Virus record (IMG/VR): IMGVR_UViG_3300043331_001141
Span: 1 to 49,191 of that record
Length of the DNA stretch: 49,191 nt
From: a virus
Reading direction: 5' to 3' (one strand)
The notes beneath the pieces are model-generated. The model did no database searches. It saw nothing but the letters and a program-made list of their open reading frames with translations, and was not told the DNA's origin. The position numbers were made by a program, and so were the translations under genes. Positions 5,188 to 45,466 of this stretch are shown piece after piece; position 1 is the first letter of the stretch, and each line of letters starts with the position of its first letter.

Positions 5188-6120
5188 ATGGGCGGAAGTG
5201 GCGGAGGAAGTGCAGGACAAACTAGTTGGCCTGATTATCTTCAGGATGCACATGAGCAGTGGTTGAATAATGCTGGAACTGATACTCTTACTCTGTCTGT
5301 CGTAGACGCAATGAATGCGGCGCATGGAGATAGTCCTTATCTCGGAGTTCTAGCATACGACCCCGATGCTGATATAGCACTTATGGGTGCTGCAGTAAAC
5401 AACTATGCCGCCCATATTGGTACTCTTGGCACAACTACTACACATGACGAAATATTCGAGGCAGCAAAAAATAGGCTCGATGGAATTTCTGATGAAAGTA
5501 GAATCGCAGAAGAGGTTTCTTCTTATAGCGCTATATTAGAAGATCAATTAATTAACGAAACTCTTCCGGCGTTCAAGGCCGGAATGCTAAATATCGGCGC
5601 TGTTAACTCTTCCAGCTTCGCAATAGGTGAGGCAATAATTAGAGGTTTCAAAGACAGAGATGTAGCAAAGTTTGCTGCAGAGATACAGCTGAAAAGCCAT
5701 TTACAAACTAAGGAATTGATAGTTAGAGAAACTTTAGAAGGGCTACAGCATCTTAGGGGAATAACTTCAGCTAGACACTCTCTTGCTACTCTAGCTACAG
5801 AAGTACGAAGACTAGTGATAGTTGCAAAGAAGGAAGAGCTGACAGAACAGCTCGAGATAGACGCTCATGATAGAACGTGGGATTTGGAAGTCTACCAATA
5901 CGGGGCTAATCTAATCGCTTCGATCAGCGGAGGTATTGGCCCGAAGGGACCGAAAGGACCTAGTAAGGCGACTAGTGCGATTGGGGGCGCTCTTAGCGGA
6001 GCTGCTGCTGGTGCAACAGTTGGCCTCGCTGCAGCTGGTGGAACATTTGGAACTAGTGTAATAATTGGTGCTGTTGCGGGCGCTGCTATTGGAGCAGGCG
6101 CTGGATACGCGTCTGCATAG
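5188..6120 (+). CDS. Putative internal virion (ejection) protein with glycine-zipper tail
   Basis: A 310-aa product. The N terminus is Gly/Ser-rich. The middle (about 90-230) is a long helical region. The C-terminal about 60 residues are Gly/Ala-rich (GGALSGAAAGATVGLAAAG), forming a membrane-active glycine zipper. Podovirus inner-core proteins that enter the host envelope during DNA ejection commonly have this composition. It is the first of three consecutive candidate core genes. SD GAGG lies at the edge of the palindrome repeat. The role is inferred from position and composition. Confidence 0.55.
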   Translation: MGGSGGGSAGQTSWPDYLQDAHEQWLNNAGTDTLTLSVVDAMNAAHGDSPYLGVLAYDPDADIALMGAAVNNYAAHIGTLGTTTTHDEIFEAAKNRLDGISDESRIAEEVSSYSAILEDQLINETLPAFKAGMLNIGAVNSSSFAIGEAIIRGFKDRDVAKFAAEIQLKSHLQTKELIVRETLEGLQHLRGITSARHSLATLATEVRRLVIVAKKEELTEQLEIDAHDRTWDLEVYQYGANLIASISGGIGPKGPKGPSKATSAIGGALSGAAAGATVGLAAAGGTFGTSVIIGAVAGAAIGAGAGYASA

Positions 6121-6128
6121 GAGGCTTT

Positions 6129-6533
6129 ATGGGCGAGACTAACAATGCCGCTACTCTCTTCTCTAATCCTAACTTCCTGGCGCTTCTTGCAGGCATAGGT
6201 ACGCAAGTTGATCCTCAGGGTGTAGGAGGACAAATCGGGCGTCCAACAACTCAGTACATTCAGAACGTTGCTGCGCAGGAAGCAATAGAGAAGCAGGAAC
6301 AAGAACGACGAAGATACAACGAGCAACTTATCGGACTTATAGGAGGCCTGACGCCAAAAGGAGTTACTGGTCCAAGCCAGGTAACTATTAATCCTGAAGG
6401 GTACACCGCTAAGGTTGAGCTTCCTGGTGGCGGTGCTGCTGTTGCGGATTTGCCTAATAGAGATGATAGGACATCTCTTTCCCGCGCTGGGCAGAAGCAA
6501 CTTCAGCTCAGTGATATCGTCCCTTTCTACTAA
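6129..6533 (+). CDS. Unshifted 134-aa product of the frameshift gene
   Basis: This is the product made when ribosomes do not slip. It shares 133 residues with the fusion and ends ...IVPFY. It has an N-terminal NPNFLALLAGIGTQ segment, a charged helix (EAIEKQEQERRRYNEQ) and Gly/Pro-rich linkers. A short and a long version from one gene is a common arrangement when two amounts of a structural protein are needed. Confidence 0.6.
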   Translation: MGETNNAATLFSNPNFLALLAGIGTQVDPQGVGGQIGRPTTQYIQNVAAQEAIEKQEQERRRYNEQLIGLIGGLTPKGVTGPSQVTINPEGYTAKVELPGGGAAVADLPNRDDRTSLSRAGQKQLQLSDIVPFY

Positions 6534-7570
6534 GCCCCGGAGGATTTTCTCCTGGTAGTCTCCGAGGGCTGACAGCGGACCAGGTAGTTGCAATAGGAGG
6601 ATTAGACGCACAGAGGGAAGCACTTCGTTCTCGCAGCGTTGGCAACGTTATCGAAGCAACGGAGCGAGGAGCACTACTGCCGTTCCAACAGGAAAGAATA
6701 GCTGCGGATAGCGATCTTGCTCGTGCTACTTCAGAGCGACTGCGTGCATTGACTGGATTGGAAGGACAGAATCTTAAGGCGAGGACGTTGGAAACTCTCA
6801 GCCTAATCAAGCCTAGAGTCGATGCGATATATTCAGGAATAGGAGTAAACGAGGCACAGATCAGAGAGATAGATACTCTCCTTGGACCGAAGATCGCGAG
6901 TCTCATCGCGAGTACTGGGTTGACTAATGCTCAGGCGCAGCAGGTTCTTGCGATAACTCCTGAAGAAGTAAACAGACTAAGGGCAACTGTAGGCCTTACA
7001 GACGCACAGATCAATGCTCTTCAACAACGACTGGGTCCAGATATAGCGCAGACCTACGCACAAACAAGGTTGCTGAATACTCAGTCTATGCTACAGGACA
7101 TGCTCGCTGGAGAGTACATAAACGTACCGAGCGGAATTCCAGGCCAGACTGGTAGAATGAGAATTAAAGATTTTGCTGATTTCCTCGCTGGAGCGGGTCG
7201 AGGAAGTGGGCGAGACGCTAGGACTCAGCTGGCATTCGATAAGTACCAGACTGCCTTGGGCGAGGCCGAAGAAGCTCGCCTGGCAAAGGCGAAGACTGCT
7301 GAGGCGGAGATTCATAAGCTTAGGGGAGGTGGAGAATCGTTTACCTTTGCAGACGACTTCAACCTACGCAGCGCTGATACGTATGTCTATCTGAGTGCTG
7401 AGCCTGGAGCCAGGGTAAAGAAGTATGATATTCCTGAAATCGCTGGAGTGAGAAAGACCGCTCGCGAACTGTACAGGGAAGCTCTTGCTAATCGTATGTC
7501 TCTTAGCGATTATCTCAGAGAACAGCTAGCTCGACTAGGCATGACTCTAGAAGATATTGAGGAGGAATAA
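6129..7570 (+). CDS. Internal virion protein made by predicted -1 frameshift
   Basis: Zero-frame translation from ATG 6129 ends at TAA 6531-6533 (134 aa). The -1 frame is open from 6515 to 7570 and encodes coherent protein from 6527 (LLSPGGFSPGSLRGL), but no ATG, GTG or TTG occurs in it until a TTG at 6749 that lacks an SD. A slippery C CCT TTC at 6521-6527 is in the correct register, so a -1 slip yields a 480-aa fusion. The downstream part is long, helical and Gln/Ala/Leu-rich, like inner-core proteins. A sequencing deletion is the alternative, but the perfect heptamer makes programmed shifting more likely. Confidence 0.65.
6521..6527 (+). promoter_or_regulatory. Slippery heptamer C CCT TTC
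   Basis: The heptamer has X XXY YYZ form, with zero-frame codons GTC CCT TTC TAC TAA. The stop follows one codon later. A hairpin GGAGG..TCTCC lies at 6539-6552, about 11 nt downstream of the heptamer, as expected for a stimulator. Confidence 0.65.
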
Positions 7571-10500
7571 GTGGCTACTACACCTTTCGACCTGATGTCT
7601 TTAGCAGGAGCTACACAACCCGAAGAAGGACAGAACGTTGACCTTCTCTCGATACTATCACAGAAGTACTCTGGCTCCCCCTCTGTTCAAAATTTAACCA
7701 CAGGACAGAGACCGTCCTCACTCTCTGACCTAGTTACTCAGCAGCTAGCACAAACTCCTCCTGGGCAGGCTCCAATGAAGGTGGAGCGTAAGCCTACTCT
7801 TGTAGACCAAGTTCGTCAGGCTGCGAACGACAATCCAGTTCTTCGTACCAATAATGCTATTATGGATGCAGGACTTAGTATCCTGTCAGGCTTTGGCGCT
7901 ATGGCAGTGTCGGGAGTAGAAACTACAGGTTTAGTTCTTAACGAAGTAATGCAGGGAATTGCAAAGGACTTCCTTCAAACTCCTCGTGATCCAGACTTCT
8001 GGCGCCACATGACAGAAAGAGTTGAAGCCAGGAAAGAACAGCTGACTTATATTCCTCGAACACCAGAAGGTAAAACCATTGTCGATGTAGTAAGTCTTCC
8101 TTTCCTCATCACGGACAAGCTGACTAAAGGAATTTCTGACGTTGGGCGGAAGATGGGATTACCTCCGGAAGATGTTGGAGTTATTGCTGGGGCGGTAGAA
8201 GTGCTTAGTTTTTATCTGGGTGATAGAGGAATCCGAGCAGCTGCAGGTAAACTAGCAGGACCTGCGGCAAGATTTCGTAAATCTGTGACTAGTAAAATGC
8301 TGAACGATCCAGAGGTTCTTCGGCATGCTCAGGAGCTACGAGGGGTAGCAGATGTAGAACCAGCGATTATAGCAAAGAGAGCGCAGCAGGCCGAGTTGTT
8401 CGAGTCACAGCCGGAGTTATTTCAAAGATCACAGGTGGAAAGTCGCGCACCAGTGCAAGCACCTAGAGCTGGAGAACAGCTTCCTTTAATTCCAGATGAG
8501 CAGATTCCGAGAAGTGGTCCTGAGATTCAGCCAGGTCTTTTCGAACCACGAGAAGCTAGACCAGTTCCAGGCGCACAAATGCCTATTCGTGGGCAGGAAG
8601 TTCAGGCAGGAATTCCTAACACGGTAGAAACAAGGATTAGTCTAAGCAATATTCCTGATTATGTCAGAGAGGCAATAGATAGGAATATTGCCATTGCTGA
8701 TAATCTTAATCTAACAGGTGAAATTACTCAGTTAGCAAGATCAGGCAGAACTGCTCATGAAATATCCCAAATATTACATGGGCGCTTCCCAAGGAATATT
8801 ACAAACTCTGAGCAGCGAGATATCATTAGATCAGTTCGTACAGGCTATGGAATTCCAAGCGTCGAGGAGATGCGAGTACTGCCGGAGCGCCTTCCAACTG
8901 CTGAAACTCCCCTAGCAGCAGGAGTCCCAGGGCCTACTCCGGCAGTTCGTAAACTAATTGATGATTCCCTTCTTGGGGATCGTAATGCGATGAGAGACTT
9001 GAAAGGTCAAGCACGAGGTCTTACTGTTGGGGGACAGCCACTAGAAGTAGGTCTTCAAACGCTTGGTGCTAATCCTGCAGAAATCGCAGAGCTTACTCCG
9101 AAGCTAAAAGGCGTACGGGCAAGAGTGCAGCCGAAAGAGAAACCCTCCGCTCCAGAAGCAACAGCTCCTGCCCGTACGGCTGAAGAAGGCAGACTGCCTG
9201 CTACGGAAGAGCTATCACTTGAGCAGTTTCTGAAGGATGAAGCAGCGGTAGGAGCGTTATTAGATGAAACAACTCCGGTTAAGAAGTCATCTGCTAGAAG
9301 AACGAGAAAAACTCCAGAGGAACAAGCTGCGAGATTAGAAGAAGTTAGGAGAGAGGAAGGACTTCCGCCTAAGGCTACAGTAGAGGAAGAACAGATAGCT
9401 AGTGTTGCCAATCAAGTAGATCAACCAGATGCTCCTGCGATTGATCCTGATTCTATCGAGGGACGACTATTGACTGCACGGAGAAGGGCAGATGAGAGAG
9501 TAGCTTCTGAGCAACGAGTAGTAATGGAATATATAGAAGAGCAGAAAAGGAAATTGAACGAGAATCCCTTGGTACCAGACGATACCCTAACTGCAGAAGG
9601 TCGTGCTGCGGTAATCGACGATGCTAAGAAGCCACTAGGGCTAGTAACTATAGAAGAAATAGAGAACGCTATGGAGACAGGAAATAAGGCTATTCTGGAA
9701 AGAGTTCCTGGAGAAATAGCCGACACTCTCGATGATGCGATATCGAAAGGAAGAAAGACTCTCGAATCAACTGAGCGTAGAAGATTCTCAGATATTCTTG
9801 CTGATATTAGAACGCTAATTACAGATGAGAGTGGACAAGTTAGTTTCCTAGGAAACGAAGGACTAAGTAGTAGCCAAAAACAAGCTGCACAAAGACTCCA
9901 GGCTGATGCTCAGAGACTAGGGGTTGAAGTGACTGAGCTTATGAAAAGCTTAGGATTCGGTGATGCAGAGAACTACTTGTATTCTTCTTATCTAGCTGGA
10001 CTGAGTAATCCTGTTCCTCCTCCAGTAGTCCAGCCAAGAGGTATGACTCTTGATCCTCAGGCAGTGGCTAGGGGTGACAAGGTAGTAGTTCAGAACAAGA
10101 ATGGATCGCTGAATAAAGCACCTATCTATAATACAGAGCGATCGGTGCTGCAACAGGCGAAGGATATAAAGCAGTCTTTCTTTCCTTTCCTGGAAAGTCC
10201 TCTCAGACTTTTTGAGGAGGCAGGATTGAAAGAGCTAATATATTATCCTTATAGAAGTGCAGAGAGGGCGTATAGAACAGCGAGACAAGCATTGACACAA
10301 GAGCTGTATGCATTAAGTAAGAACTTAACTCGCGAGCAAAGAGAAGCAATTACCGCTCATGCTTATTCCCTCGATCCAGCAGGACAGAAGATTAATCAGT
10401 TCAATAACAAAGCTCCTAGAGCCTTGACGGATAATGAAAAAGTGGTATATGATACTCTCAGAAATGCATACGACGAATTGTTCAAGAGAATTAATGAAGT

Positions 10501-12124
10501 TCGAAAAGCTATAGGACAAGAGCCACTAGATAAAATTCCTAACTACTTCACATTCGTCCGTGCATTTTCTATGGCAGAGGAGCTAGGTCTTGCACCTAAT
10601 CCATTGCTGAGCCCGAAGAATGTTGTAGCAGCTACTTATGCTAAGTACAGCTCCGTTCCATTTGCTCATGCTAAGAAAAGAACGGGCGCAGCTTACAAGG
10701 CTGACCTAGATGCATTCAGTATATTCTCTCAGTATGGCCAGAGAGCACTGAAGTATATTAACTTGACCCCATTCACAGCAAAGGTTAAAGAGCTTATCAG
10801 CTCCGACTTGCCTGATCCAAAGACGGGAAAATTGAACTGGAAACTTGAAGACAACCTGCCGCAGACGTACAAGTTCTTGAGCGAGTGGAATAACTTTGTT
10901 TCGCACGGGTATCAGTCAAGTCTAGGAAGAGTAGTAGATAGAGGAATAAACATGCTGAATAAGAATCTAGCTTTCTCTCTTCTCAGTGCTAATCTTCGAT
11001 CAGGACTTATTCAGCCAACCGCGATTAGAAATACTTATACAGAAATAGGTGCTAAATACACAGCTGAAGGAATCAAGATGTCAATAGAGGACATTTATCA
11101 AGGAGGAAAGAATAGAGAGTTTGCGATGAAGAACTCGCAGGTGCTTGATACGAGACAGATGGCGGACGTGTATGATAGTGTTTATGACTCGATAAAAAAG
11201 TTGAGAGGAAGCGAAATAGCTCAGGATATTAAGGCTCAGCCAGTGGCAGGAACGATTAGGAGTCTTGGAGCTGCCAGAGACATGTTGGGCTCGGCAGGGT
11301 TTAAGTTGTTGAAGATAGGCGATTTTGAGACTGCTCTAGCAACGTGGAATGGTTCGTATAAGTTTGCGACAGAGAAGCTAGGATATTCAGGAAAGCAAGC
11401 ATTTAACTATGCTGACGATGTAGTGACAAGAACACAGGCAAGTTCCCTTCCAGGTGATCTAGCGCCTATTCAGCGAAGTATGTTAGGTCGAGCTCTGACT
11501 ATGTTTCAGACATTCGTGATTAATGACTGGAATTTCCTAACTCGTGATGTTTTAGGACTGAAGTCTGGACAAGGACTGACAAAGGACGTAGCGATTAAGG
11601 GCGCTAGAATGATAGCAGCTACAACTATTCTCAATATGTTTCTTGAGGATGCACTAGGACTGAATAGCCCGTTTCCCCGTCCGATTAAGGAACTAGTCGG
11701 GCAGATTAGAGAAGGTGAGAATTTCGAGAACATTGCTTCTAAAGTAGGACTAGAGCTAGTCGAGCCAGTGCCAATTCTTAGTGGGACAAGGTATGGAAGA
11801 GCACCAGGAGGTCCTATTCTAGAAATGATAGGAGATGCGGCGGAGAAACTTCGTGGTGGCGCGTATGCGAATAAGAAGAAAGGTATGATCACCGAGATAA
11901 GAGAGGAGGGCTTGACTAGTGGAAATCTTGCCGATGTCTTCTCTCACCCTGTGACAAAGCTAGGTGGTGTGCCTGGCGCAGCGCAGTTTACAAAGACCTT
12001 CAGGGCGATGGAGAGGGGAGAAAGCCCCTGGACAGCCATGACCGGGTGGTACGATCCTAACGCCAGGGAGAAGGAAAGCGAGAAAGGTGCGAATGAGAGA
12101 TTAGGGGGAAGGCTTAGTCGGTAA
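7571..12124 (+). CDS. Giant internal virion protein, 1,517 aa
   Basis: Starts at GTG directly after the preceding TAA, with GAGGA upstream. The first about 80 residues are polar. A hydrophobic helix occurs near 105-130 (LSGFGAMAVSGVETTGLVLN). A Pro/Glu-rich linker zone spans about 280-640 (repeated Q/P/E-rich phrases). The C-terminal about 750 residues are dense helices with many conserved-looking aromatic residues. Size, last position in the virion operon and composition fit the large podovirus core/ejection protein. I find no lysozyme or transglycosylase motif and no RNA-polymerase motif. It is the last rightward gene and meets the leftward arm 8 bp later. Confidence 0.65.
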   Translation: MATTPFDLMSLAGATQPEEGQNVDLLSILSQKYSGSPSVQNLTTGQRPSSLSDLVTQQLAQTPPGQAPMKVERKPTLVDQVRQAANDNPVLRTNNAIMDAGLSILSGFGAMAVSGVETTGLVLNEVMQGIAKDFLQTPRDPDFWRHMTERVEARKEQLTYIPRTPEGKTIVDVVSLPFLITDKLTKGISDVGRKMGLPPEDVGVIAGAVEVLSFYLGDRGIRAAAGKLAGPAARFRKSVTSKMLNDPEVLRHAQELRGVADVEPAIIAKRAQQAELFESQPELFQRSQVESRAPVQAPRAGEQLPLIPDEQIPRSGPEIQPGLFEPREARPVPGAQMPIRGQEVQAGIPNTVETRISLSNIPDYVREAIDRNIAIADNLNLTGEITQLARSGRTAHEISQILHGRFPRNITNSEQRDIIRSVRTGYGIPSVEEMRVLPERLPTAETPLAAGVPGPTPAVRKLIDDSLLGDRNAMRDLKGQARGLTVGGQPLEVGLQTLGANPAEIAELTPKLKGVRARVQPKEKPSAPEATAPARTAEEGRLPATEELSLEQFLKDEAAVGALLDETTPVKKSSARRTRKTPEEQAARLEEVRREEGLPPKATVEEEQIASVANQVDQPDAPAIDPDSIEGRLLTARRRADERVASEQRVVMEYIEEQKRKLNENPLVPDDTLTAEGRAAVIDDAKKPLGLVTIEEIENAMETGNKAILERVPGEIADTLDDAISKGRKTLESTERRRFSDILADIRTLITDESGQVSFLGNEGLSSSQKQAAQRLQADAQRLGVEVTELMKSLGFGDAENYLYSSYLAGLSNPVPPPVVQPRGMTLDPQAVARGDKVVVQNKNGSLNKAPIYNTERSVLQQAKDIKQSFFPFLESPLRLFEEAGLKELIYYPYRSAERAYRTARQALTQELYALSKNLTREQREAITAHAYSLDPAGQKINQFNNKAPRALTDNEKVVYDTLRNAYDELFKRINEVRKAIGQEPLDKIPNYFTFVRAFSMAEELGLAPNPLLSPKNVVAATYAKYSSVPFAHAKKRTGAAYKADLDAFSIFSQYGQRALKYINLTPFTAKVKELISSDLPDPKTGKLNWKLEDNLPQTYKFLSEWNNFVSHGYQSSLGRVVDRGINMLNKNLAFSLLSANLRSGLIQPTAIRNTYTEIGAKYTAEGIKMSIEDIYQGGKNREFAMKNSQVLDTRQMADVYDSVYDSIKKLRGSEIAQDIKAQPVAGTIRSLGAARDMLGSAGFKLLKIGDFETALATWNGSYKFATEKLGYSGKQAFNYADDVVTRTQASSLPGDLAPIQRSMLGRALTMFQTFVINDWNFLTRDVLGLKSGQGLTKDVAIKGARMIAATTILNMFLEDALGLNSPFPRPIKELVGQIREGENFENIASKVGLELVEPVPILSGTRYGRAPGGPILEMIGDAAEKLRGGAYANKKKGMITEIREEGLTSGNLADVFSHPVTKLGGVPGAAQFTKTFRAMERGESPWTAMTGWYDPNAREKESEKGANERLGGRLSR
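7681..7703. repeat. Degenerate palindrome copy inside coding sequence
   Basis: TGTTCAAAATTTAACCA with the outer C and G at the standard distance differs from consensus at two core positions. It is the only copy found within a gene and may be chance. Confidence 0.4.
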
Positions 12125-13393: not shown

Positions 13394-13416
13394 CTCTGTT
13401 TAAATTTTAAACAAAG
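13394..13416. repeat. Dispersed palindrome, copy 2
   Basis: Core TGTTTAAATTTTAAACA. It contains the DNA polymerase stop (13407-13409 on the minus strand) and precedes the SD of the 22-aa peptide. Confidence 0.9.
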
Positions 13417-15899
13417 AGACTTCCCTGAAGTACATTTATTATTCCGTCTAATTCCTTCTCTAATTCGTCCACGTTGTATGGGAACTTACTTCCTTTCAAA
13501 TCTATTCCATCATCCTTGTTCATAGTAAAGCTTATAGATAAATCGGCCGGTGGTACGAACTCTCGACTTCTAAACTGCAGAGGTTTCTCTAGACTTTTCC
13601 GCATATCCAGGATTATTCGTGCGTGCTCTCTGATAGGAAGACTTAAAGGAATCTGAAAACCTATATCATCGTGGATTTGTATGAGAAGTTCTACAGGCGC
13701 AAACATTTGTTGATTGTAGTAGGTATAAATTAGCCCCCTTTCATTTATCAAGTCTCCACAAGTTGATTGCGGGATACAAGAGTATGCTTCATTCAGCATG
13801 TTTGTATTCCACTGACCAAGAAATTGGTGCTTTCTTCCTAGTAAGTTCGTCAGAGTTCTATCTCGTTGCAGCTCCTGCTGAACGAAAGTCCAATATGAAT
13901 TTTTTATCCCTGGATAGACTGCGTGGTAAGCATCGTAAACTATCTTCCCTTCCCTATCCGTTATTCCATAATCGAGAGCGAAGGCTCGATAGCCACGACC
14001 ATAGCCGAAGGAATGATTTCCACGCTTCCCATCCTGGCGCAGTTCTAATCCTACTTCTTCATAAGGAACATGGTAGCCTAGAATATGCTTGGACATTAGA
14101 GAGCCGGTAAGGCGATGAGTGTCTAGGCCATTCTCGAAGGCTTCGATCAGAGGACGAATATTACCGACGTATGCGACCACGCGATTTTCGAACTGACTCA
14201 TGTCAAGACGATAAATGACATAGCCAGAATCGGCAACGAGAATGCTTAGTAGCTCATGTGGCCAGTTCTGTAAATTCGTGCCTCTTCCAAATATGTTCTC
14301 ACTACTAGAAATTCTAGAAAACTTTGTTCCAGAAGGATTGAACTGGCATCGGATACGTCCATCAGGGTCGAATTTCTTATCTGTTAGATACGTCGTTAGG
14401 CGTTTATTGTGGTGCCTGAGTTCTAGAATCAGCTGAGCTTCAGGAAAACCTTTCCTCGCAATTCTCTTCAGGGCGTCTTCGTCTACTGTAATAGCGTCAG
14501 TTTTAGGGTTGATATAAGGAGGTAATCTTTTCTCAATATAAAAGTATTCTTGTAGCTGCTGAGAGCTGTTCAGATTTATCTCTTTCCCCATGAGGGAATA
14601 TATCTGGTCCTCTAATTCTTCTATCTTCTCCGTAGATATGGCTCGTAGTTCCTTGAGCTTATTATAATCTACCTTTATTCCTCTCTCCATCATGTAGACG
14701 AGAGGTTCGATTAGTTTGACTTGTCTCTCATACGCGGCTAGATTTGCTTTCGTTTTCAGTGCGTTGATTTGCTTAGGATGTGCAACTGCACAGCTGATGG
14801 AGTCTAGACAGTTGTATTGCCAGCCTTGCTCCCAGGAGCCTGAGCCTTCTAGCCAAATCTTCCCGTCTCTTTTATAATAAGGAAGATTAGTCCACATACT
14901 TGTAATGAAGTCTAGACCTTTGGGGAAGTCAGGATAAAGGATGCCCTGTGCGACAAAAGTATCGCGGAGATTGTGGGTAGGAATTCCATATTTGTGAAGA
15001 AGAAAGTGAGAATCGAAGACTATGTATTGGCCCCCCTTGCTTACCTTCTCGTCGTGGAGGAGGTAGGAAAGTCCTCGCATGATGGTGGCTTCTTGCTCAG
15101 GAGACCAGGTATCACCGCTGGCGTCGATAAAAGGAATACAGAATGCGTAAGCGGTACCGTCTGATTTGTATCCGAGGCTGATACAGGAAAGTTCCTGACT
15201 CGAAGTTTCCAGTTCTATATCCCAGTAAATTATATCGCCTCCTAGTCCCCTCTCGTGCATCTCTCTTATTATATCCAGGACGTCATAGTAAGAATGTAAT
15301 ACTTCTGTATGAATTTTCTCCCCGATTATATCGGGAAATTTACTTTCTCTCAATGCTTTCTTTAGATCGAAGCCGACCAAGTACTTGTCAAAGTATGCCT
15401 TAGGATTCTTCCGTAATTTTTCCCACGTCCAGTTAGCAGGGTGAAGAGTTGCTAGAACTTTTCTGCCTGGGAGTAGAGTCGATTCTAGGACTGAGCCTCG
15501 CCAGGAATGAATGCCCCAGCGCTCGCAGAGTGCCCAGAGAGCAACGTTTCCGCAAACGACTATGACATTAGACGAGCAATCATTCAGCTCTGATTCTAGG
15601 TAGTCTAGATAGAACTGGCCTTTCTCAGTCCAGGAAGCAGAAGGAGGCTTTCTCTTAGTTCCCCTAGTACTTACGATATAGTGATCTAAAGAATGGTCAA
15701 GGTCTTTGATCACATTTGTGAAGTAGCAGAGACTACTGCTAATCCCAGCGGTGTGAAGACACTCATGGAGATTTTCGCCGGCAGGTCCAACGAATGGACG
15801 CTGTTGAACTACTTCTTGATTTCCAGGCTGCTCTCCGACAATTGCGATCGGCGCATTCGGAGAGCCCCAGGAACCAACGAAAGTCGGGCTGAGGCTCAT
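13407..15899 (-). CDS. DNA polymerase A with N-terminal uracil-DNA-glycosylase-like domain
   Basis: An 830-aa protein. Residues 1-about 190 resemble family-4/5 uracil-DNA glycosylase: GEQPGNQEVVQQRPFVGPAG, the VVCGNVALWAL strand and LHPANW. Next is a 3'-5' exonuclease with DIE (Exo I), a FDSHFL Exo II-like line and YNCLDS (Exo III). The polymerase domain has motif A DMSQFENR, motif B with RQDGKRGNHSFGYG and motif C QIHDDIGF. It replicates the phage genome; the glycosylase part could remove or bind uracil. Such fusions are known for some phages (for example SPO1). It lies directly upstream of the helicase. Confidence 0.9.
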   Translation of the reverse strand: MSLSPTFVGSWGSPNAPIAIVGEQPGNQEVVQQRPFVGPAGENLHECLHTAGISSSLCYFTNVIKDLDHSLDHYIVSTRGTKRKPPSASWTEKGQFYLDYLESELNDCSSNVIVVCGNVALWALCERWGIHSWRGSVLESTLLPGRKVLATLHPANWTWEKLRKNPKAYFDKYLVGFDLKKALRESKFPDIIGEKIHTEVLHSYYDVLDIIREMHERGLGGDIIYWDIELETSSQELSCISLGYKSDGTAYAFCIPFIDASGDTWSPEQEATIMRGLSYLLHDEKVSKGGQYIVFDSHFLLHKYGIPTHNLRDTFVAQGILYPDFPKGLDFITSMWTNLPYYKRDGKIWLEGSGSWEQGWQYNCLDSISCAVAHPKQINALKTKANLAAYERQVKLIEPLVYMMERGIKVDYNKLKELRAISTEKIEELEDQIYSLMGKEINLNSSQQLQEYFYIEKRLPPYINPKTDAITVDEDALKRIARKGFPEAQLILELRHHNKRLTTYLTDKKFDPDGRIRCQFNPSGTKFSRISSSENIFGRGTNLQNWPHELLSILVADSGYVIYRLDMSQFENRVVAYVGNIRPLIEAFENGLDTHRLTGSLMSKHILGYHVPYEEVGLELRQDGKRGNHSFGYGRGYRAFALDYGITDREGKIVYDAYHAVYPGIKNSYWTFVQQELQRDRTLTNLLGRKHQFLGQWNTNMLNEAYSCIPQSTCGDLINERGLIYTYYNQQMFAPVELLIQIHDDIGFQIPLSLPIREHARIILDMRKSLEKPLQFRSREFVPPADLSISFTMNKDDGIDLKGSKFPYNVDELEKELDGIINVLQGSLFV

Positions 15900-16990: not shown

Positions 16991-18304
16991 CTAAGTGTAT
17001 TCCCAACCCTGCCCGATCTTCCTGATAAAGTTTCTCCTGTACTCCTCTGAGTTATCAAAGCCGATCGCTGTAGCGCCCATTAGATACGCTGCCCAGAGAG
17101 TTACTCCAGAACCTGCTAGTGGAACTAGAATATCGGCACCCTTCCAAGTAAAAGTCTCCAGAAGTTCACTCATTAGACTCAGGGGTCTTTCGGTAGGATG
17201 AACTTTCTTACTAGGAAAGACAGGAGGAAAATCGAAGATGTTTGAACGACCAAGCTTCCTAAGCTTCGGTGAGCCTTTTCTAGCATAGAGGCAAGTCTCG
17301 TATGCGTGAGCTAGATAAGTGTCTGGTTGGTTAGTTTGTCCTGGTGATCCTCCCTTTTTCCAAATGAGTGGAATAGGACTGCAGACGAAACCTTGTGCAG
17401 TTATTGCGTTTAGCACTGTTCCATAGTGCTCATGGCCAAACCACCAGAGAAGCCACGAATTGTCTTCGGCTAAGTTCCAGCAGAGGCTTGATAGGCGACC
17501 ACAGAACTCGCTATAAGAGCCTCTTTCTACCTCAGTATAGCTACTCATACCCGTTTTTCGAGCTTGTCGGATATTTACCAGGTCGATTCCATAAGGCGGA
17601 TCGAGTTCTATTAGATCGAATCGAGTATCGGAAGAGAGTAATTTCTCCAGTTCTTCGAATACATCCCCGACTCCATACCAGTCCTTAATCGAATTCTCCT
17701 CTTTCTCATCAGTTCCTGGGTCAGATACTTCTAGCATGTGAGATAATCGTCGCATAGTTTTCATCGCGTGAGACTTGTTCTTCATTTTGTCAAGTCCTAG
17801 CTCCGGAAACTTTTTCATTGCGTCGGCTAGCTGTTTATCCATTGTTACAGAAGCAGGACTTTTTCCGATAAGTTTTGCAGTGTCACGACTTGAGTGCCCT
17901 GGTGCATCAGGAGAACGGGTGACTTTTGTTCCATAGAGGTCTTTCAAAGTCTCATCGAGCTGCGCGATTAGCGCGCACTCTTCAGAGTACAGGAGATTCT
18001 TTCTGTGAATGTTTTCGAATAGCTCTAGTGCACGAAGCTCTTTTTCCGAAAGCTCTTCCTCGTATACTCTACACGATACCAGGTCATCTTCGGAGATCGA
18101 AAGCTTCTTGCAGGCTTCTAGTCTGCGACCCCCGGCAACAAGTTGATATTCCTGCCCGGTCCAGTGAACAACGATAGGCTGCATCAGGCCGTGCTTCTTG
18201 ATTGAATCGGCGAGTTTGTCTATATCACCGTAGACCTTGCGAGCACGCTCACCAACTACTATTGAAGAAAGGGGAAGAACTTCCAGTCGACCTAGATTCA
18301 GCAC
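16991..18304 (-). CDS. ParB-domain / DNA methyltransferase fusion
   Basis: A 437-aa protein from GTG 18304 with SD GGAGG. Residues about 1-100 are a ParB-type domain (DIDKLADSIKKHGLMQPIVV, then VAGGRRLEACKKL). A helical linker with an HTH-like portion (SSRDTAKLIGKSPASVTMDK) follows. The catalytic motif IV is DPPYGI at 235-240 and the SAM-binding motif I (VPLAGSGVTLWAA) is near the C terminus, the order of beta-class amino-methyltransferases. It likely methylates adenine or cytosine amino groups in phage DNA against restriction, with the ParB part guiding DNA binding. No partner nuclease is present. Confidence 0.85.
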   Translation of the reverse strand: MLNLGRLEVLPLSSIVVGERARKVYGDIDKLADSIKKHGLMQPIVVHWTGQEYQLVAGGRRLEACKKLSISEDDLVSCRVYEEELSEKELRALELFENIHRKNLLYSEECALIAQLDETLKDLYGTKVTRSPDAPGHSSRDTAKLIGKSPASVTMDKQLADAMKKFPELGLDKMKNKSHAMKTMRRLSHMLEVSDPGTDEKEENSIKDWYGVGDVFEELEKLLSSDTRFDLIELDPPYGIDLVNIRQARKTGMSSYTEVERGSYSEFCGRLSSLCWNLAEDNSWLLWWFGHEHYGTVLNAITAQGFVCSPIPLIWKKGGSPGQTNQPDTYLAHAYETCLYARKGSPKLRKLGRSNIFDFPPVFPSKKVHPTERPLSLMSELLETFTWKGADILVPLAGSGVTLWAAYLMGATAIGFDNSEEYRRNFIRKIGQGWEYT

Positions 18305-43070: not shown

Positions 43071-43496
43071 ATGGCAACTAGGAAAACATACGTAGGCCCT
43101 ATCGGTCCTCTCCTTCATGATGATCTACTTCCTATCGACGATGTGGATGGAGAGTTTCCTGGACAAGACAGAAGAGGTATAGTCACAAATTGCGGTATCG
43201 TCTGCGCTGGCTTGAACGTAGATGGAGCAGATATATCTCCTAGTATGCAGCACGATCAGAACACTGACACTATTCTGGACGATGGTGGTGCTAACGAAGT
43301 CAGCGCGGCAGAAATTCGTTCTCATATTGATCAGCCTCTGGTGCCAGTAGGTGGTCTTCCAACTCCTACAGCTGGGCTTCGTGGTGCGATAGTCGTCTTA
43401 GATCAGGGTGCAGGAGTTGAGGACGAAGTATACATCTGTGTCAAATCTGCGGCTGATACTTACGAGTGGGTACTCATAGTTGCGGGGACTCCATAA
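43071..43496 (+). CDS. Hypothetical capsid-region protein
   Basis: A 141-aa product. Gly/Pro/Asp-rich, beta-type, for example GIVCAGLNVDGADISPSMQH and a C-terminal RGAIVVLDQGAG..EVYICV. Its stop overlaps the portal ATG (TAATG). Perhaps a decoration or fibre-knob protein. Confidence 0.5.
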   Translation: MATRKTYVGPIGPLLHDDLLPIDDVDGEFPGQDRRGIVTNCGIVCAGLNVDGADISPSMQHDQNTDTILDDGGANEVSAAEIRSHIDQPLVPVGGLPTPTAGLRGAIVVLDQGAGVEDEVYICVKSAADTYEWVLIVAGTP

Positions 43497-45466
43497 TGCC
43501 AGCTACAATCGGAGCGGGAACAAGTAACGGTATCTATTCTCCTAGAAAGAAGTTCGACTACCATTATCCAGAGGGTCTCGATCTCTACCCTCATAGCCAG
43601 CAGCATCAAAAACTTCTTTCTCATATTCTACAACGGGCTATTGCTAGCGATTCAGTAATGAGTCCTCGGAGAAGAGAGTGGAATGAGGTAGACGAGAAAC
43701 TCACTGCGTACATTCCACTAAACGAAAAAGAACGATTAATAAAAGACAAGGATAGACGAAAGCCGGTATCTATCGTATTTCCTTACTCCTTCGCAATTAT
43801 GGAAACAGTCCTGGCATACATGGTAGCGGCTTTTCTTCCCGAGCCAATATTCCGCTATGAAGGCGTCAGCCCGGATGATATAGTCGGAGCGGCTCTCATG
43901 GAGCGCCTGATAAACAAACAGTGCAATTACTTCAAAGTCCCGATCGCCCTACACACATTCTTCCGTGATGCTTGTGTATACGGATTCGGCGCGGTATCTC
44001 CTACTTGGGAAGAGCGCCGCGGTAACAAAATGGTAAATCAACCAATAGAATCATTTGATGCATTTGGTAATTCTAGTACTTCAGGAACTGAAAGAATTCG
44101 CCTAGAGAATCAGCTTTTGTTCGAAGGTAATTCTCTAGAGTCAGTCGATCCTTATCGCTACCTTCCTGATCCAAATGTCGCAATTCAGAATGTGCAAAAA
44201 GGCGAGTTCGTAGCCTGGGTTGATTCAACGAACCAGTTGAATCTTCTAGAAGAAGAACAGTATGATGAAGAACTCTTCAACGTCAAGTACATCGGGACAG
44301 AGCACAAGAACTCTAAAATAACTGCGTATGATTATTCGAGACGTACATTCAGAACAGATGGAGGAGTAGGACGAAGAGCGGGTGACACACTGACTCACGT
44401 AACTCAACCTGTTGACCTTCTTCATATGTACGCGAAGATAGTCCCAGCCAGCTGGGACATGGGATCGTCTAAGCGACCTGAACGCTGGCTTTTCACAGTA
44501 GCACAGGATGCTGTGATAATTAGGGCAAAGAGACTCGACTTCAACCACGGGCTTTTTCCTATCTGCGTAACAGCGCCTGATTTCGATGGTCATTCGCCTA
44601 TTGCATATTCGCGCCTGGAAATTCTTTCTGGAATGCAGACTGTTATTGACTGGTTATTCAACTCACATATTGCAAACGTGAGAAAGGCAGTCAATGACAA
44701 ACTCATCGTTGATCCGTTTATGGTAAACGTAAAAGACCTAGTCAGTGATGAGCCTGGTGGGCTTATTCGTCTTCGCCGACCTGCATTCGGAAAAGGTGTT
44801 AAAGACTATATCATGCAGCTGGGAATAACCGATATCACTCGCGCGAATATTCAAGACGTTCTGTTCATCATCCAGTACATGCAGCAGATTGGTGGCACTG
44901 ACAATGCCGTCATGGGTTCTCTACGTCGTGGAGGACCTGAACGACTAAGCGCTAGAGAATTTCAAGGCACAGCACAGGGCGCAGTCAGTCGTATGGAGAG
45001 AATAGCTAAAATCGTTGGCTGGCAAGGGATGCAGGATATCGGCTATATGTTTGCCTGCAATGCTCAGCAGCTGATGACGCAGGAAACATGGGTGCGCGTT
45101 CTTGATACCTGGCCTCAGAGAATGCTATCTAATATTGGAGCTCGTGATGGAAGAGCCAGAATAGGACCTAAAGATATTATCGTTGATTACGATCTCTTCG
45201 TCCGCGACGGCTCAGTTCCTGGAGGTAATTTTCTCGATACCTGGGTACAGTTATTCCAAACTATTGCTGGAAGTGAAACTCTTCAGCAACGCTTCGATGT
45301 CGTTCGTATCTTCAAGCACATCGCGCAAGAATCTGGGGCTAAGAACGTTGATGACTTCGAGCTGCGTCAAGTACCTCCAATTCAAGCCAGCGTCCAGCCT
45401 GACGAGGATGTACAAGAGCAGTTTGACAGAGGCGAATTAGTTAGACTTCTAGGGGAGGGAGCATAA
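43496..45466 (+). CDS. Portal protein
   Basis: The start is set at ATG 43496, giving 656 aa. Length, position between TerL and scaffold and the helical N-terminal half with FPYSFAIMETVLAYMVAAFL and later MQQIGGTDNAVMGSLRRGGP are those of a podovirus-type portal. It forms the 12-mer DNA gate and packaging motor base. The end is acidic. No other gene in the cluster can fill this role. Confidence 0.8.
   Translation: MPATIGAGTSNGIYSPRKKFDYHYPEGLDLYPHSQQHQKLLSHILQRAIASDSVMSPRRREWNEVDEKLTAYIPLNEKERLIKDKDRRKPVSIVFPYSFAIMETVLAYMVAAFLPEPIFRYEGVSPDDIVGAALMERLINKQCNYFKVPIALHTFFRDACVYGFGAVSPTWEERRGNKMVNQPIESFDAFGNSSTSGTERIRLENQLLFEGNSLESVDPYRYLPDPNVAIQNVQKGEFVAWVDSTNQLNLLEEEQYDEELFNVKYIGTEHKNSKITAYDYSRRTFRTDGGVGRRAGDTLTHVTQPVDLLHMYAKIVPASWDMGSSKRPERWLFTVAQDAVIIRAKRLDFNHGLFPICVTAPDFDGHSPIAYSRLEILSGMQTVIDWLFNSHIANVRKAVNDKLIVDPFMVNVKDLVSDEPGGLIRLRRPAFGKGVKDYIMQLGITDITRANIQDVLFIIQYMQQIGGTDNAVMGSLRRGGPERLSAREFQGTAQGAVSRMERIAKIVGWQGMQDIGYMFACNAQQLMTQETWVRVLDTWPQRMLSNIGARDGRARIGPKDIIVDYDLFVRDGSVPGGNFLDTWVQLFQTIAGSETLQQRFDVVRIFKHIAQESGAKNVDDFELRQVPPIQASVQPDEDVQEQFDRGELVRLLGEGA

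Follow-up and report, generated by a model that had tools for sequence, protein, structure and literature searches.

Does an apparent break in a phage gene reflect a programmed shift of the reading frame, a sequencing error, a decaying gene, or two separately started genes? The question is raised by a locus in a virus record of 49,191 bases, the whole of which is hereafter called the window (Table 1). A first-pass annotation of this DNA had proposed a programmed -1 frameshift in an internal-virion gene. Its description of the frames was confirmed: the zero frame ends at 6531 and the -1 frame, which opens after a TGA (6512-6514), runs on to 7570. The lengths of the two products that it predicted from one gene, 134 and 480 amino acids, were also recovered from the sequence, the longer being the trans-frame product.

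Table 1. Features of the split locus and its flanking genes in the window
Feature	Position	Strand	Basis or remark
Upstream gene, 310 aa, Gly/Ala-rich C-terminus	5188..6120	+	Conserved neighbour used for finding relatives
GGAGG ribosome-binding site of the zero-frame gene	6120..6124	+	Read directly from sequence
Zero-frame ORF, N-domain protein, 134 aa	6129..6533	+	ATG at 6129
-1 open frame, C domain read from 6527 after the predicted slip	6515..7570	+	ORF and homology
Slippery heptamer C CCT TTC, X XXY YYZ register	6521..6527	+	Read from sequence
Zero-frame stop TAA	6531..6533	+	One codon (TAC) between heptamer and stop
Predicted stimulatory hairpin, stem beginning 5 nt past the heptamer	6533..6570	+	Folding and arm covariation, 50 loci
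Downstream gene, 1517 aa, giant internal-virion/ejection-type protein	7571..12124	+	gp16-like by position

The in-register heptamer one codon ahead of the stop and the hairpin downstream of it, both pointed out in that annotation, are present. The two frames overlap by 19 nt, or about five codon positions. Coding sequence has a measured background of 127 heptamers in 49,862 positions, which gives a probability of 1.3% that one falls in the overlap by chance. The hairpin has a folding energy of -19.4 kcal/mol, though its z-score is only -1.89; 10 of 200 shuffled sequences fold equally well, as do 6.8% of random windows near the hairpin. No start codon was found in the -1 frame close to the slip site, the earliest ATG, GTG or TTG being the TTG at 6749, as previously noted. 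No Shine-Dalgarno (SD)-like stimulator was detected upstream of the heptamer by anti-SD pairing. The window by itself is suggestive of a frameshift signal, not conclusive. Its hairpin alone is modest; the conclusion rests on the relatives.

Relatives found through neighbouring genes

A direct search of IMG/VR and of named phages with the -1 frame protein returned no relative, and relatives were therefore sought through the neighbouring genes. The giant neighbour found a locus, L002, with 34% identity. The L002 gene at the same place is split alike, with C CCT TTA one codon ahead of its stop. The 310-aa neighbour retrieved 42 and 80 IMG/VR loci (many on shared contigs, which were counted once) and two genome contigs. 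This first set comprised 95 entries, including the window and a Desulfofustis phage. Twenty split loci served to build profiles of the N and the C part, which matched 72 of the 95 and gave no match in 23. The matched loci consist of 21 split genes with a canonical heptamer, four genes split otherwise (L024, L030, L025 and L098), five two-gene arrangements, 33 genes fused in a single frame, and nine others matched by one part only. A later scan with another subfamily gave 80 loci, 30 of them on new contigs: 12 without a match, two matched in the N part only, three in the C part only, five split and eight fused. Overall, 35 of 125 loci had no match to the profiles of the gene. Homologs in many uncultured phage contigs adjoin the same neighbours.

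Several other candidates were discarded. Loci L003-L005, found via the terminase, were uninformative, the long ORF of L005 not being homologous. The named phages Kuura, Mel-JY34, VS-ABTNL-3, Tiera and P5, which have related portals, gave no match to the N or C profile at the locus; a short neighbouring gene in Mel-JY34 resembled a split but had no heptamer and no profile match. Vibrio phage 1.185.O has a different layout.

Homology extends across the frame junction of the window. The N part of the 134-aa protein is 42% identical to the single-ORF homolog L023 over 88 residues (E 2e-20), and L023 aligns with the trans-frame product from residue 8 to 469, spanning the junction (E 2e-39). To avoid circularity, a further profile was made from 27 fused proteins with the window excluded; it scored the trans-frame product of the window at 9e-15.

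The first set contained 28 loci split into the -1 frame, L098 counted. Four of them (L054, L055, L079 and L097), set aside only after inspection, lack a heptamer and have an SD sequence with an ATG at the N stop. An in-register heptamer lies within the overlap in 21 of the remaining 24, where 1.0 was expected (P ~1e-27, with loci treated as independent). A stem 2-7 nt past the heptamer, with an arm duplex of -14 kcal/mol or better, is found in all 21, against 52 of 5250 random windows. Three of the five later splits also have a heptamer (AAATTTT in L162, CCCTTTT in L164, CCCTTTC in L213); the other two, L150 and L215, have an SD plus ATG restart. The comparison of the heptamer among relatives thus supports the programmed -1 frameshift of the first-pass annotation, with heptamers in 21 of the 24 split -1 loci without evident restart.

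If the break in the window were an assembly error or the mark of a decaying gene, the heptamer would be a coincidence, and the existence of a single-ORF relative such as L023, together with the 1.3% probability that the overlap contains a heptamer by chance, leaves some room for this. It is strongly disfavoured and extremely improbable, as the same break with an in-register heptamer and a stem occurs in 23 other contigs (20 in the first set and three in the later one). On the basis of the relatives, the break is not a sequencing error.

In seven two-gene members (L016, L054, L055, L079, L097, L150 and L215), the C part is restarted by an SD sequence and an ATG at, or overlapping, the N stop. 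A fused product is therefore not needed everywhere. These seven also provide a model for making the C part by re-initiation at its own start codon, without any slipping. This is very unlikely to apply to the window, where the -1 frame offers no start codon before 6749 and none near the site. Several other split sites do have start codons in the C frame, but mostly with weak SD energy, and the strong G-rich stretch upstream of a TTG in L108, L110 and L118 is also a hairpin arm.

Some splits depart from the canonical site. L024, L030 and L098 are split into the -1 frame at the non-canonical sequences C CCC TGG TAG or C CCT TAA; their hairpins or arms are strong, and inverted repeats directly follow the site (L024:9463, L030:9464, L098:5233). 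Slipping of the P-site tRNA alone is possible in these three. L025 is split into the +1/-2 frame: its junction (L025:9583-9605) has C CCT CTT, with the C part in the +1/-2 frame and a strong hairpin. The junctions of L013 and L023, read by eye, also have C CCT CTT, with a +1/-2 stop soon after. These three loci possibly use -2 slipping. Separately, AAATTTT with a strong hairpin occurs in a locus without a match to the profiles of the gene (L102:5555), where one region contains two -1 overlaps in succession.

The same cassette in fused genes

In the first-pass annotation, relatives that lack a heptamer and have a single continuous frame had been named as evidence that would refute frameshifting. 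Continuous frames do exist. Of 33 single-frame homologs, six (L013, L014, L015, L023, L053 and L129) lack a canonical heptamer and 27 have one in register at the same domain junction; the latter count is not blind, as the list of fused sites was chosen by eye. In L014 and L015, the sequence is C CCT AGT, and a -1 slip would meet TAG at once. The fused heptamers are mostly A AAC CCT, with some C CCT TTY; where two heptamers overlap in one locus (AAACCCTTTC), the site was counted as C CCT TTC. A stem lies within 8 nt of the heptamer at 26 of the 27 fused sites, compared with 52 of 1620 random windows.

At these fused sites, the -1 frame stops after 0-8 codons (median 2). The distance to the stop is at most three codons in 24 of 27, as it is for 45% of all positions in these ORFs (p 4e-4). 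A slip there would thus cut the protein short after its N domain. Codon choice is biased as well: A AAC CCT encodes 21 of the 24 Asn-Pro pairs near the junction but only seven of 378 elsewhere (p 8e-34). Among the eight later fused genes, a heptamer was found in five by a fixed rule and in seven after re-anchoring by eye at the motif; L160 has no canonical heptamer, and the hairpin of L165 is weaker (-11.1). In L199, matched in its C part only, AAATTTT is followed by a -1 stop after two codons. Altogether the cassette is carried by 59 contigs, 24 split and 35 fused (27 from the first set and eight from later contigs), which form 52 clusters at 60% identity.

A structure model of the fused homolog L062 (pLDDT 71.7, pTM 0.32) has an N part made of helices and a pair of strands, followed by the C part; residues 77-125, in the region of the slip site, are modelled with low confidence. 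A fold search of the PDB with this model gave no match, which is weak evidence because the confidence of the model is moderate.

The junction lies in a linker predicted with low confidence, which is a plausible place for a folding pause. In the fused relatives, the combination of heptamer, hairpin and SD-like sequence might only pause ribosomes between the two domains, slipping being of consequence in the split members alone. A perfect in-register heptamer is unnecessary for pausing, however, and neither the strong bias in Asn-Pro codons nor the -1 stop within three codons in 24 of 27 sites is accounted for in this way, which makes a mere pause unlikely. One observation counts against the frameshift reading: among the fused heptamers, A AAC CCT occurs most often despite its CCN A-site codon. 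In E. coli, CCN codons in the A-site promote shifting less readily, on average, than do UUN or AAN, according to an excerpt of PMC4066793.

Covariation of the hairpin arms and other stimulators

The arms of the hairpin covary. Paired with its own partner, an arm gives a mean of -17.9 kcal/mol, compared with -11.5 kcal/mol when arms are swapped between loci, and none of 20,000 permutations was as good. The arms were placed by the heptamer and a protein motif only, without reference to folding, in 50 of the 59 loci; L162 and L088, in which no motif was found, and seven near-duplicates were left out. This fold-blind placement replaced a first arm-swap test that was biased because the arms had been chosen by folding. 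The 3' arm coincides with the codons that encode a conserved LAGL-type motif, and the 5' arm therefore appears to follow it. The stem begins 2-8 nt past the heptamer, as measured from MFE folds. The first comparison of hairpins between split and fused loci was meant as a control and led to the heptamers of the fused genes; its anchor misplaced several loci.

An SD-like sequence (duplex of -5 or lower) lies upstream of 67% of the split and 63% of the fused sites, against 24% in the background; the window has none. Transcriptional slippage was set aside as there is no long homopolymer at the site.

The anatomy, its conservation, the covarying hairpin and the homology across the frames are observed; the slipping itself and its rate are inferred. 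Ribosomes starting at 6129 would reach C CCT TTC (6521-6527), where the hairpin from 6533 would delay them. Some would shift back onto CCC TTT and continue to 7570, yielding the protein of 480 aa; those that do not slip would stop at 6531, yielding that of 134 aa. In split members the slip would thus produce N+C, and in fused members N plus a few residues. That the frameshift is real and programmed is very likely. The full reading, that of programmed, dnaX-like -1 frameshifting in an internal-virion gene with a cassette kept in both polarities, is highly probable as judged from sequence comparison.

Phage type, known systems and reversal of polarity

The frameshifted gene sits directly before the giant gp16-like gene, as T7-type ejection proteins would. 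The profile of the giant protein, built with its homolog from L002, matches lytic transglycosylases, and T7-type gp16 weakly, in its N-terminal part. The portal matches PHROG 332, a head-tail adaptor, which we take to be the T7-type head-tail adaptor/portal family. It also matches the solved chain "portal gp5" (window 43466-45466; 8zkk, E 6e-72), and the major capsid protein matches the chain "major capsid of VP1" (window 47410-48690; 9in6, E 7e-67). On the minus strand, the window encodes a DNA polymerase A with a uracil-DNA glycosylase superfamily domain fused N-terminally (13407-15899; PF03167, E 4e-19) and an N6/N4 DNA methyltransferase fused to a ParB N-terminal domain (16991-18304).

Neither part of the frameshifted protein matched Pfam or PHROG, and no homology to any solved chain, gp14 and gp15 included, was detected. 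The "ejection-type" label of the first-pass annotation rests on the position before the gp16-like giant and on the neighbours, and not on homology of the frameshifted protein itself. From its position, this protein may serve the ejection apparatus. The cassette lies at a domain junction, and its likely role, again judging by position, would be to fix the ratio between two forms of an internal-virion protein belonging to the DNA-ejection apparatus.

The internal virion genes of T7 are ordered gp14-gp15-gp16, a gene order like that found here, and the profile of the giant neighbour matches gp16 chains in its transglycosylase part. Unlike the T7 internal virion proteins, the frameshifted protein has no detectable homology to a solved chain or fold. 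We know of no frameshifting in T7 gp15. Literature searches for frameshifting in an ejection or internal-virion gene found no paper within the library searched.

Known phage frameshifting is mostly in tail chaperones. As with the G/GT chaperones of lambda, a -1 frameshift is predicted here in a gene of the structural module upstream of a very long protein gene. The locus could then encode a tail-assembly-chaperone pair, the giant protein being a tape measure: two -1 frameshift products directly upstream of a very long protein are in the textbook position (excerpt of PMC5009743), and a tape-measure chain is among the PDB matches of the giant profile, in the lytic transglycosylase part. The gene set, however, resembles that of a short-tailed phage, with the T7-type head-tail adaptor/portal family and no tail-tube or tape-measure PHROG among the 27 proteins scanned with PHROGs. 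No chaperone family in PHROG or Pfam matched either part and, unlike G/GT, to which there is no sequence match, the family includes single-frame members of reversed polarity. These would produce the long form without any slip, which agrees poorly with the ratio of about 30:1 given for lambda in the same excerpt of PMC5009743. A chaperone pair is accordingly improbable.

The mechanism itself is already known from dnaX. The heptamer of dnaX is A AAA AAG, and in E. coli the gene has an upstream SD stimulator. The latter is also implied in the excerpt of PMC5009743, which describes bacterial dnaX (tau/gamma) as having, as is predicted for the present gene, a short and a long product that share the N part, a shift site with a downstream stem-loop, and, in one polarity, a stop right after the slip. 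Reversed polarity of dnaX is reported there for a few bacteria. Here, by comparison, the gene is a phage virion gene and not a polymerase subunit, the heptamers are C CCT TTN and A AAC CCT, and polarity has changed at least nine times on one tree. The same excerpt of PMC5009743 provides two further likenesses, both in unrelated cellular genes: the carboxysome gene cso2, with 50% efficient -1 frameshifting and a 3' stem-loop, and the copper pump gene copA, in which the slip gives a short N-terminal product.

The figure of at least nine changes between split and fused comes from a tree of the upstream protein with 59 rows (five near-duplicates left out), in which many branches are weak and the place of the window itself is unsure. 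The closest split and fused pair over a long alignment, L101 and L008, is 54% identical in the C part. The two products, N and N+C, appear to have been kept while the coding polarity flipped. A near-even slip rate, as for dnaX, is the simplest reading: at such a rate, either polarity would give a similar product ratio, and an indel could flip the polarity. We lean slightly towards a history in which the output of N and N+C at a near-even ratio was selected, polarity was free and flipped many times, and some lineages came to have two separately started genes. If this is true, the selected trait would be virion stoichiometry and not the identity of the shifted product.

What is new is the place of the frameshift in an internal-virion gene, of which there is no report in the literature searched, along with repeated switches of polarity in which both products seem to have been retained. 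In all, 59 phage contigs have a predicted frameshift signal, and the gene would otherwise be annotated in them as two genes or as one, with a product missed either way. The repeated reversal of polarity leads to a testable claim, that the slip rate should be near 50%. With its fused, shifted and two-gene versions, the family offers a natural experiment on why an ejection-type protein is needed by phages in two forms.
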